From the NCBI GenBank assembly GCA_022828225.1, contig JAJEJG010000008.1, positions 1-64,000 on the forward strand: a stretch of DNA of 64,000 nt. Reading direction: 5' to 3'. The notes below the pieces were generated by a model that did not search any database, was not told the origin of the DNA, and was given only the letters and a program-made list of their open reading frames with translations. Made by a program: the position numbers and the translations under genes. Shown piece after piece: positions 8,023-14,980 of the stretch (within the stretch, counting starts at the first letter, position 1; each line of letters begins with the position of its first letter). The stretch is from Nitrospirales bacterium. GTDB taxonomy: Bacteria; Nitrospirota; Nitrospiria; Nitrospirales; UBA8639.

Positions 8023-10458
8023 CTAGCCCGCAACGGCGAGGAACGGCACGGCGATGGGCAACGTATTTTTAATCGCGAGCAAGAAATGGATAAGCATAAA
8101 CATGCCTGCGATCCATTCGATGCTGGCGATCCCAACCAGCGCACGCGTGCGCGGATACGCGGTTCCCAGACCCAGTTTAAAGAACGCCCGGCCCGAGAGG
8201 AACAGCGCGTCTTTCAAAGGATGCAGAGACCGCTCTTGTTTTTCCCAACTCTGGAAAAACCGCTCGAATGGACGGAAACGGAAGGCCCGTTTCCGATCCG
8301 GGAAAGGCTTCAGATATACCTTTGGCTTCCACTTGTAGACGTGAATTTGAAGCAAGAAATAGCAACAGTAGATCATTGCGAAGAAAAGCATGAGACCGGC
8401 AGACACCAATACCGCCCTATAGAGGTCGATTCCGTAGCGAGAAGGGAGGTCCCCGAAAATCAAGAACGCCCAGTACTCCAATGCAATGAAAAATTCCCAT
8501 TCCTTCACTTTAGGGTATTGACTCTCCTCATACGCCACCATGCTCAGGTACCACGCCTCATTCGCGGCTAGCCGGTCGTTCGTCACCCGGAACGACGATT
8601 CGATGGTCTTGTAGATGTCCCGGAGTTGTTCGTTTTCCTGGCCTGATTTACTTCCCCTATTCGACTCATCCAAGAGATCAGAGCATGAATGCGGGCTGTC
8701 GTTTTTGACACCGCGAATCCGGCTTTTTCCCAACGCAGTGAGCGGGAGCAGATCCGGGAAGAAATACTCGGTCCACGAGGATTCGTAGCCCAGATGTTGC
8801 CTTTCCATGAAAAGCTTGCTGATGCTGTTGAATGACAGGCACAGATGGGGATCTTCTAGTCCTTCCTTTGATTGAAATTTCACTCCTGTCAGATCCCACA
8901 CGCTACGGAACCGGTTCCGGATGAAGATCGCATCGTCCCGGAATGTGGCACGGAGGAAATCCACTTCTTTCTCGAATATGAGGTTCTGGAATATGAACTC
9001 CTCAGTCTTTTGTTCGGATTTTTCTGGATTGAGTTCGCAAGAATCCATCTTGGATTTGCCCTTATAAGACGAAATTTTCCCGGAACTCCCGAACTCGACA
9101 TCTGAAAAATCCACCAGATCGAAAAAACGAATCCCCTTGAATACGGCTTTCCTGAACTTGGCCTCACGTGCATCGAATACGCCTTTGACGCTAGACGGAC
9201 GATTCGTGCTATCCCAAGAAAGGTCTTGGATTCTTGCTTCTCGGAAATCGGTTCGACCTTCCCAATTCGTTTTGATAAGGTCGAGTTTGCCTTCGACTAT
9301 TGTGTGCCGAAGATTTATGCCCTCGCCGAAGGTGACCTCAGAGAAGGAAGCGTTATTGTCGAATTTGGCCGCAGAAAAAGAAGCGTCGTCGCCGAATTTG
9401 GCTCTACCGAAAACAGCCTTGTCGCAGAAGAAGGCCTCAGAGAAGGAAGCGCCGTTGTCGAATTTGGCCGCGGCAAAGGAAGCGTCGCCGCCGAATTTGG
9501 CTTCAACGAAGGAAGTGTTGTTCCCGAACTTGGCCTGAGAGAATAAAGTGTCGCCGCCGAAGCCAGCCCGAAGGAAGCGAGTGTTGTCGCCCAAGGTGGC
9601 CGCATCGAAGGAAGCTTTATCGCCGAATTTGGCTTCAACGAAGGAAGTGTTGTTCCCGAACTTGGCCTTAGCAAAGGAAGCGTTCTTGCCGAAGGTGGTC
9701 TTAAAGAAGGAATGGTTTCTCGAAAAGAAGGAGAAGGTATCGTGGTCACCGAATATGGTTTCCAAGAAGGAAGCGTGGTCGCCGAAGGTGGCCCTAGCGA
9801 AGGAAACGTTCTTGCCGAAGGTGGCCCTAGCGAAAGAAACGTTCTTGCCGAAGGTGGCCCTAGCGAAGGAAGTGGAATTGCTGAAGGTGGTATACGAAAA
9901 ATCTGTTAAGTTCGGAAAGCGGCTCCCATTGAATGAGGTTCCTTGCGTGAATTTAATTTCCTTGGCCGAAAATGACGGCCCTAGCGTTACATTGTGCCAT
10001 TCAATGTTTGCGGCGAACACATCCCTAACTTTTTTATTGGCTTCTTGAGTGACTTTTGCAAATTCCGCAAGACTCATCTGCCAGAACTTTTTGAACGACC
10101 ACAAGACACTGTCTTGAATGAGAAGAGCGCGTTTCTGGTCCTTGATTTTCCTCCACGCCTCTACGTACCAGTCGAAATCAATGACGTGATTCTTGAGCCT
10201 TCTGTTGCTTTCCAGACAGCGCCTGATGTCTTCCTTAGGAAAGCGGGCGGCTTTGAGCTTCGCCAACATCCTTAAATCATCTTGGATCTCCGTCGGCATC
10301 AAAGGCTGCCCCTCTTTGTTCACCGGGATTACGGCTTCAGCTTGGCTGTTGTCGCAGGGCACGTTCTGCGCGTCGGCGGCCCTGAGGGGTACGGGGAGGA
10401 GGAAAAACAGGAAGACAAAGACCCCCGTCAGGAGGGTTCGCATTCGGATTATCTGCAT
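8023..10458 (-). CDS. Large membrane-anchored pentapeptide-repeat protein
   Basis: About 811 residues from the ATG at 10458, chosen because it places a signal-like hydrophobic stretch (LLTGVFVFLFFLLPVPL) near the N-terminus; an upstream ATG at 10545 is also open. Residues about 180-420 are dense pentapeptide-type repeats of the form F..A.FG..ASF, expected to form a right-handed quadrilateral beta-helix. The C-terminal quarter has a helical region and two predicted membrane segments (AGLMLFFAMIYCCYFLL and WIAGMFMLIHFLLAI). No enzyme motif is visible. The gene lies in the IS-rich island. Function unknown; a surface or membrane scaffold is a guess. Confidence 0.75.
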   Translation of the reverse strand: MQIIRMRTLLTGVFVFLFFLLPVPLRAADAQNVPCDNSQAEAVIPVNKEGQPLMPTEIQDDLRMLAKLKAARFPKEDIRRCLESNRRLKNHVIDFDWYVEAWRKIKDQKRALLIQDSVLWSFKKFWQMSLAEFAKVTQEANKKVRDVFAANIEWHNVTLGPSFSAKEIKFTQGTSFNGSRFPNLTDFSYTTFSNSTSFARATFGKNVSFARATFGKNVSFARATFGDHASFLETIFGDHDTFSFFSRNHSFFKTTFGKNASFAKAKFGNNTSFVEAKFGDKASFDAATLGDNTRFLRAGFGGDTLFSQAKFGNNTSFVEAKFGGDASFAAAKFDNGASFSEAFFCDKAVFGRAKFGDDASFSAAKFDNNASFSEVTFGEGINLRHTIVEGKLDLIKTNWEGRTDFREARIQDLSWDSTNRPSSVKGVFDAREAKFRKAVFKGIRFFDLVDFSDVEFGSSGKISSYKGKSKMDSCELNPEKSEQKTEEFIFQNLIFEKEVDFLRATFRDDAIFIRNRFRSVWDLTGVKFQSKEGLEDPHLCLSFNSISKLFMERQHLGYESSWTEYFFPDLLPLTALGKSRIRGVKNDSPHSCSDLLDESNRGSKSGQENEQLRDIYKTIESSFRVTNDRLAANEAWYLSMVAYEESQYPKVKEWEFFIALEYWAFLIFGDLPSRYGIDLYRAVLVSAGLMLFFAMIYCCYFLLQIHVYKWKPKVYLKPFPDRKRAFRFRPFERFFQSWEKQERSLHPLKDALFLSGRAFFKLGLGTAYPRTRALVGIASIEWIAGMFMLIHFLLAIKNTLPIAVPFLAVAG
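9300..9900 (-). repeat. Intragenic tandem 30-bp-type repeats
   Basis: Within the pentapeptide gene, units such as GCCGAAGGTGGCCCTAGCGA recur nearly identically (three in a row at about 9780-9870), and more diverged units of the same length extend to about 9300. Thirty bases encode two pentapeptides. The near-identity suggests recent unit duplication and possible length variation between strains. Confidence 0.75.
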
Positions 10459-10576
10459 CTTCACGCGAAAAATGGACGCGGGGTCAAATCTTGTCATCCG
10501 ATAGTCATCAGACTGGGGGAATACAGGTAGTAATCTAACGATCATCTACAATCATGCAGTGTGGCAATCGAGGGCT

Positions 10577-12194: not shown

Positions 12195-12347
12195 TGCTAT
12201 GATCTTGCTATATCTGCTATGTTTTTGCTATGTTTTGTTGCGTTTATGCTATGCAGTGCTATGATTTGCTATGGCTTGTTATGTTTTTGCTATACTTACG
12301 CTATGTTTGCTATGATTGTGCTATGTTTCGCATAGCGTGCTGCTATG
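12195..12347. repeat. Helically phased TGCTATG heptamer array
   Basis: TGCTATG or a one-to-two-base variant starts at 12195, 12206, 12215, 12226, 12236 (degenerate), 12247, 12257, 12267, 12277, 12288, 12299, 12308, 12319 and 12341, with the inverted form CGCATAG at 12329. Spacing is 9-11 bp throughout, averaging about 10.4 bp, the pitch of B-DNA. The linkers are T-rich and not conserved. The array ends 47 bp before the start of the winged-helix gene. It has no long open reading frame of plausible composition. Confidence 0.85.
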
Positions 12348-12393: not shown

Positions 12394-12813
12394 ATGTCTG
12401 AACACGATGCCAGCATGGAGACCTATCGCACGGTCTTGAAGGATCTGCAAAGGCGAAAAAAGATCATCGACGCGGCCATTGCCGGCGTGACGGCGTTAAT
12501 GGGAGAAAGTGAAGCCGAATTGCAGGCCTGTCTGCCTGCTTCGCTTCCCAAAACTCAGGAGTCTCGTGACCTCGCGTCCGGTGCATTCGCCGACCTGACG
12601 TTGACCGAAGCCGCCCAAATCTACCTGAGTACAGTGAAAGACCCTCAATCCACTGCTGATATTGCCGACGCTCTTAAAAGAGGGGGATATCCTACCGAGT
12701 CCCATAATTTCAGAAATACCGTGAGATCGGTCCTGGACCGGAATGCCAAGACCGTGGGGGACATCGTCAAGATTAACAGGAATTGGGGACTGGCCGAATG
12801 GTCCCGTGACTGA
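12394..12813 (+). CDS. Small winged-helix DNA-binding-like protein
   Basis: 139 residues. The N-terminal 40 residues (ETYRTVLKDLQRRKKIIDAA) form a predicted coiled coil. The C-terminal 75 residues (LTLTEAAQIYLSTVKDPQST, TADIADALKRGGY, FRNTVRSVLDRNA, WGLAEW) have the pattern of a HARE-HTH-like winged helix that recurs in many bacterial hypothetical proteins. A GGATGGAGG ribosome-binding region precedes ATG 12394. It stands alone, directly downstream of the TGCTATG array, so autoregulation through that array is a reasonable inference. Function is not established. Confidence 0.75.
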   Translation: MSEHDASMETYRTVLKDLQRRKKIIDAAIAGVTALMGESEAELQACLPASLPKTQESRDLASGAFADLTLTEAAQIYLSTVKDPQSTADIADALKRGGYPTESHNFRNTVRSVLDRNAKTVGDIVKINRNWGLAEWSRD

Positions 12814-12883: not shown

Positions 12884-12896
12884 TTCACTCAACCAA

Positions 12897-14980
<2,084 letters not shown>

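Follow-up and report, generated by a model that had tools for sequence, protein, structure and literature searches.

A Nitrospirales bacterium carries in its 2.36-Mb genome (G000) about 17 intergenic arrays of directly repeated TGCTATG-like heptamers, spaced by one helical turn. The array in the 64,000-nucleotide stretch analyzed here (the window) lies directly upstream of a gene for a 139-aa protein with a putative HARE-HTH-like winged helix, and this gene is inherited together with the arrays. We propose, with a probability of about 0.6, that the arrays are binding platforms of the 139-aa protein, which would form a polar cooperative filament on them, autoregulatory at its own gene and chromosome-organizing elsewhere.

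In the proposed mechanism each heptamer would take one protomer. Given that the heptamers recur every 10.4-10.5 bp, all in the same direction, the protomers would align in head-to-tail order along a single helix face, giving a cooperative polar nucleoprotein filament on probably curved DNA. Upstream of the 139-aa gene, the filament would most likely act in autoregulation; at the other ~16 sites, the complexes would most likely organize the chromosome by site-specific anchoring, bridging or boundary formation, possibly with local effects on transcription. The whole resembles a protein-and-site system not described before, which probably serves chromosome organization or gene regulation. Only tentatively do we go further and suggest an undescribed chromosome-organizing system, in which a HARE-HTH-type filament on replication-oriented phased arrays would act in folding, segregation or fork passage.

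The proteins known to read direct repeats locked in helical phase come mostly from plasmids, and a few act at promoters. If true, a network of phased arrays spread over a chromosome would be new and would open the question of how nucleoprotein filaments organize the bacterial chromosome. We know of no bacterial target of such a kind for small HARE-HTH-like proteins; the proposed pairing would give this protein group a specific DNA word that can be put to the test, and the genomes form a natural series in which the gene and the arrays are kept, reduced or lost.

The Array Upstream of the 139-aa Protein Gene

The features of the locus are listed in Table 1. The sequence-only reading had counted fourteen heptamers; thirteen stand as direct units, and the fourteenth is one inverted or degenerate slot. 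The steps are 9-11 bp, apart from one double step of 21 bp and another of 22 bp, and 46 bases separate the end of the last unit from the start codon. The intervals, the mean of about 10.4 bp and the common helix face described earlier agree with these steps and with the period of 10.4-10.5 bp found below. A TTTTGTTGCG slot, similar to the degenerate slot of the window array, recurs in several other arrays, and an inverted unit is kept at the corresponding place upstream of the gene in seven of the eight gene-bearing genomes, G005 being the exception.

Table 1. Features of the window at and around the array (positions of the 64,000-nucleotide stretch)
Feature	Position	Strand	Remarks
TGCTATG-like heptamer array	12195..12347	+	13 direct units, 9 exact; <=1 mismatch allowed
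Direct unit starts	12195, 12206, 12215, 12226, 12247, 12257, 12267, 12277, 12288, 12299, 12308, 12319, 12341	+
Degenerate slot	12234..12246	+	TTGTTGCG-like; fills the 21-bp double step
Promoter-like match	12287-12316		TTGCTA-18-TATGAT, consensus promoter scan
Inverted heptamer CATAGCG	12331..12337	-	pairs with the unit at 12319 as GCTATG-TTTCG-CATAGC
TGCTATGAA	12341..12349	+	possible extended -10 element of the 139-aa gene, suggested by its sequence
139-aa protein gene	12394..12813	+	putative C-terminal HARE-HTH-like winged helix; N-terminal, presumably helical segment
TPP riboswitch	12892-12994		Rfam RF00059, 72.9 bits
thiC	13004-14980
840-aa ORF	8023-10545	-	many FxxATFG-type repeats, pentapeptide-repeat-like

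The array is well beyond what local dinucleotide shuffles yield. Its nine exact copies of TGCTATG compare with a mean of 2.8 and a maximum of 9 per shuffled whole 64-kb window, and with a maximum of 4 in 2000 local dinucleotide shuffles. The longest chain of in-step units, 13, compares with a maximum of 7 in 1000 such local shuffles. The consensus promoter scan marks a match inside the array, not TGCTATGAA. A wedge model predicts strong curvature, with an end-to-end ratio of 0.56 for the array where the 5th percentile of the window is 0.80; the earlier suggestion of a curved regulatory segment is thus possible in addition to a binding platform. Just 3' of the 139-aa gene, an ordinary TPP riboswitch precedes thiC.

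Distribution of Arrays in the Genus and Phylum

Array counts derive from pattern and BLAST searches, and since the relatives are mostly MAGs, with arrays often near contig ends, they are lower bounds. From G000, 17 arrays of 5-18 units each were extracted; a BLAST search of the window array against its own genome gave 22 matches. For the two-unit pattern GCTATG-N3..5-GCTATG there are 84 occurrences, compared with 2 for the reversed control. The same pattern was counted in G001 (11), G003 (30), G005 (16), G008 (66), G010 (3), G011 (36), G012 (74) and G013 (55). It occurs at most once in G002, G004, G006, G007 and G009, and is at background in other members of the family and order. The scan covered 396 genomes of the phylum, 14 of the genus and 382 others. 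A stricter three-unit pattern was found in nine of the 396, all from this one genus, with no match of its reversed control in any genome, and the array pattern is absent from the 382 others sampled. To judge by its record names, we take the array-bearing genus to be sponge-associated Nitrospira MAGs. The set analyzed below comprises 70 arrays with 704 units from nine genomes, the arrays of G008, G011, G012 and G013 being those among the matches listed.

A phage origin was considered and rejected: matches of the pattern in 2.9 million viral contigs proved to be fixed-unit microsatellites or coding-like repeats, and annotated phages gave no match. Four viral contigs of very different length (L188, L195, L196 and L198) carry near-identical TGCTATGCTATGCGCT tandem arrays, an unrelated fixed-unit repeat. 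A literature search on TGCTATG returned nothing relevant.

Helical Phase and Sequence Constraint

Over the 70 arrays, the mean spacing is 10.43 bp for a single step, 21.1 bp for a double and 32 bp for a triple step; the common period that fits best is 10.4-10.5 bp. Successive steps are negatively correlated (lag-1 correlation -0.42, null -0.08 +/- 0.04, with 0 of 5000 shuffles as low). Because short and long steps compensate each other in this way, it is the helical phase itself that is conserved. Orthologous arrays are not mutually independent, so tests within single genomes matter: the correlation is -0.48 in G000, four other genomes are at p <= 0.007, and G003 stands at -0.36 (p = 0.064).

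Linkers had been described as T-rich and unconserved, as is seen in the window array, and the comparison of orthologous arrays bears out the lack of conservation. With heptamer, linker and flank labels taken from one sequence only, identity is 0.906 in the heptamers (0.716 at the seventh base, the weakest), 0.647 in the linkers and 0.643 in the flanks. Taking phase and identity together, what is retained is the heptamer along with its angular position, while the linkers drift like adjacent DNA, and such a constraint is what a row of bound protomers on one helix face would be expected to impose.

The 139-aa Protein

The Pfam HARE-HTH model (PF05066) gives the window protein 17.3 bits, below the family cut-off of 25.9, and matches the C-terminal domain in all eight homologues at E <= 0.1, at best 4.7e-5. 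Relatives of solved structure give weak matches only (E >= 0.06), and the AlphaFold model built from eight sequences has a mean pLDDT of 41. The seven other homologues in the genus are 69-83% identical to the window copy. None of the eight has a MerR-type match in Pfam or NCBIfam, and no transposase, HUH tyrosine transposase or nuclease domain was found in the protein with Pfam, NCBIfam, PADLOC and PHROGs. A GTDB-wide protein scan with clade-specific peptides recovered seven relatives only, in Nitrospira or Nitrospirales MAGs, and no plasmid-borne homologue was found. Distant homologues in the phylum are few (G098, G138, G239 and G374); the one in G098, from another family of the order, is 36% identical and has no array upstream. 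To our knowledge, no HARE-HTH protein binds arrays of this kind.

Co-Inheritance of the Gene and the Arrays

The 139-aa gene is present in G000, G001, G003, G005, G008, G011, G012 and G013, which are exactly the eight multi-array genomes, and each of the eight has an array immediately upstream of it and thiC downstream. No intact gene is found in the six other members of the genus, of which five are free of arrays and one (G010) retains a single array at the site between xth and the gene for arginine decarboxylase. Within the genus, this co-occurrence has a Fisher p = 0.003, not corrected for phylogeny, and an independent-pair test has too few pairs for significance. In this lone array of G010 (L127, 5003-5111), several units read TGCGATG and TGCTATGCGTTGCGATGGCA is duplicated in tandem; it may be a decaying relic.

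G009, which has no arrays, retains a remnant of the gene, ~45 residues with a stop, at the syntenic place on the same strand upstream of thiC. Because of this remnant, we read the gene as ancestral and repeatedly lost, with all or nearly all of the arrays disappearing on each occasion. In the thiC+xth tree, the gene-less G004, G006 and G010 group with the gene-bearing G005, while G009, G002 and G007 fall outside, with modest branch support. Loss of the gene appears from these sequences to accompany loss of the arrays more than once.

From this pattern we infer that the 139-aa protein is the cognate binder of the arrays, though the test took in one candidate gene, and this role could belong to a different gene inherited along with the arrays. 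The cooperative binding platform suggested in the sequence-only reading is thus well supported indirectly, by the co-occurrence of the gene with multiple arrays, the array upstream of the gene in eight of eight genomes, and the constrained phase and heptamers. Its scope as a local operator was too narrow, the window array being one of about 17 chromosomal sites rather than the operator of one gene. Homologous loci devoid of an array, unconserved spacing and shuffled sequences with equal phasing were all looked for, and none of the outcomes overturned the platform.

Chromosomal Positions and Alternative Explanations

About a dozen array positions are common to several genomes. With neighboring genes named from their translations, these include, besides the place before the 139-aa gene, the region where xth converges with the gene for arginine decarboxylase (argDC), the divergent purE/nuoF-like region, the region between tandem rhomboid and DHH-type genes, the vicinity of a DUF1015-like gene, and others; arrays thus occupy convergent, divergent and tandem intergenic regions. 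If the 139-aa protein were a conventional transcription factor and each array the operator of a neighboring gene, one would understand why an array precedes the protein's own gene in 8/8 genomes, the divergent purE/nuoF-like genes in five and the DUF1015-like gene in three, and why a promoter-like match lies within the window array. A pure regulon is nevertheless unlikely, because one of the conserved arrays is flanked on both sides by 3' ends, those of the converging xth and arginine decarboxylase genes. In addition, the neighbors of the arrays have no obvious common pathway, and the array of the glyQ locus is apart from the conserved promoter-like sequence of glyQ and is missing in the other genomes read. 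GC skew also predicts the orientation of the arrays better than gene direction does. At 14 of the 17 sites of G000, TGCTATG is on the C-rich strand (+/-20 kb, p = 0.013), and 28 of 35 independent loci share this orientation (+/-4 kb, p = 5e-4), whereas lone heptamers show no bias (5 vs 7). This orientation test was post hoc, and the bias could reflect how the arrays spread.

Individual arrays come and go. At the xth site, G004, G002 and G007 show a clean absence of the array. The G000 array between a receptor gene and glyQ is absent upstream of glyQ in 12 other genomes, some of them represented by short stretches only; gene-bearing relatives also lack it, so individual arrays turn over and not all are needed. 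Some arrays have border sequences in common that are found nowhere but at arrays, GAAGGAGACAAAAGGCTTG on the 5' side and TTCCGCAAAGCGGGCGG on the 3' side. Shared sites, lineage-specific sites and borders together indicate arrays that are gained and lost, yet are constrained while present. Many other short dispersed repeats, of the type GGAATGACGGAAGG / CGGGAATCCAT, occur in intergenic regions of G000 and its relatives (for instance, L226 upstream of thiC and L284-L296 upstream of glyQ); repeats of this type differ between genomes at the same intergenic site, and some border arrays.

Like REP elements, the arrays might be short non-autonomous elements that amplify in intergenic regions and that the single-copy protein helps to spread or to silence. 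A single-copy gene beside a repeat, intergenic dispersal and co-occurrence are the RAYT/REP pattern (PMC3116915), the array-only borders and the lineage-specific copy at glyQ agree with it, and the strand bias is as expected of lagging-strand-targeting elements (PMC6006769). We regard such an origin as quite improbable as a full account, in view of a protein with no transposase or nuclease domain in the libraries searched, of direct arrays where REPs are palindromic, and of orthologous sites at which heptamers and phase stay under constraint but linkers diverge as fast as the flanks. Repeat-like spreading and use as binding sites are compatible and can hold together.

The strong curvature given by the wedge model would also suit phased T-rich arrays that act by intrinsic bending, with no dedicated protein; this is very improbable, as it is the heptamer that is conserved and not the linkers bearing the T-tracts, and as the exact co-inheritance with one gene would be left unexplained. 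A functionless, microsatellite-like product of slippage, which local duplications within some arrays (for instance, the repeated TGCTATGTTCA in G005) might suggest, has next to no likelihood for the family, being contradicted by the phase and constraint tests, though these stop short of claims on single arrays. As was noted from the window alone, the array is no simple fixed-unit microsatellite. Against slippage stand unit lengths that range over 9-12 bp in the family with compensating steps, differing linkers, 16 other loci and conserved orthologous positions, and true fixed-unit microsatellites of this word in viral contigs look different.

Comparison with Known Systems

The binding-platform reading has its closest working analogues in two systems, to neither of which do we assign the arrays as family members. 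In plasmid R388, StbA binds the stbDRs, 9-bp repeats that form two groups of five with 2-bp spacers, and the motif is also present in other promoters (PMC3098194). The arrays share with them direct repeats about one turn apart ahead of a small-protein gene. However, the stbDRs are plasmid-borne with a fixed 11-bp step, whereas the arrays are chromosomal, with steps of 9-12 bp that average 10.43 bp. The second analogue, BldC of Streptomyces, is a small winged-helix protein that binds direct repeats cooperatively, head to tail, with one turn per unit and distortion of the DNA, at sites of varying length (PMC5859096). It belongs to a MerR-like family and recognizes few repeats of an AT-rich motif at the promoters of a regulon, whereas here the protein is HARE-HTH-like and the arrays, of 5-18 repeats, occur in every kind of intergenic region. 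The earlier statement that no element of this form had been described is therefore nearly right: the principle of direct repeats at one turn is shared by the stbDRs and the BldC sites.

The likeness to RAYT/REP (REPIN) systems is that of one single-copy gene beside an intergenically dispersed repeat (PMC3116915); the differences are that no transposase is present and that the repeats are phased direct heptamers, with only some end units inverted, instead of palindromes. The neighbors of the arrays are thiC, xth, purE, glyQ and others, with neither the initiator gene nor the origin that accompanies replication iterons. An iteron-like origin, as once proposed for the window array, has no support, since no replication gene adjoins it and the array exists in about 17 copies. 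ParB/parS, MatP/matS and Noc exemplify one protein with many dispersed chromosomal sites, some regionally biased. Those sites are single and palindromic and their proteins unrelated, whereas long phased direct arrays are found here.

In enterobacterial plasmids of the IncI2 type, TGCTATG-like units recur with a constant 11-bp step (L039:1479-1582; L040:1505-1619) between an stbA-like gene and mobilization genes, upstream of the stbA-like gene. The IncI2 stbA-like protein has no similarity to the 139-aa protein, and a search with it gave no match in the 14 genomes of the genus, a result obtained with no positive control. As the proteins are not detectably related, the shared heptamer, striking as it is, is taken, from these comparisons, as convergence or chance.

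Finally, the 840-aa ORF upstream of the array has tandem DNA periods of 33, 66 and 99 bp.
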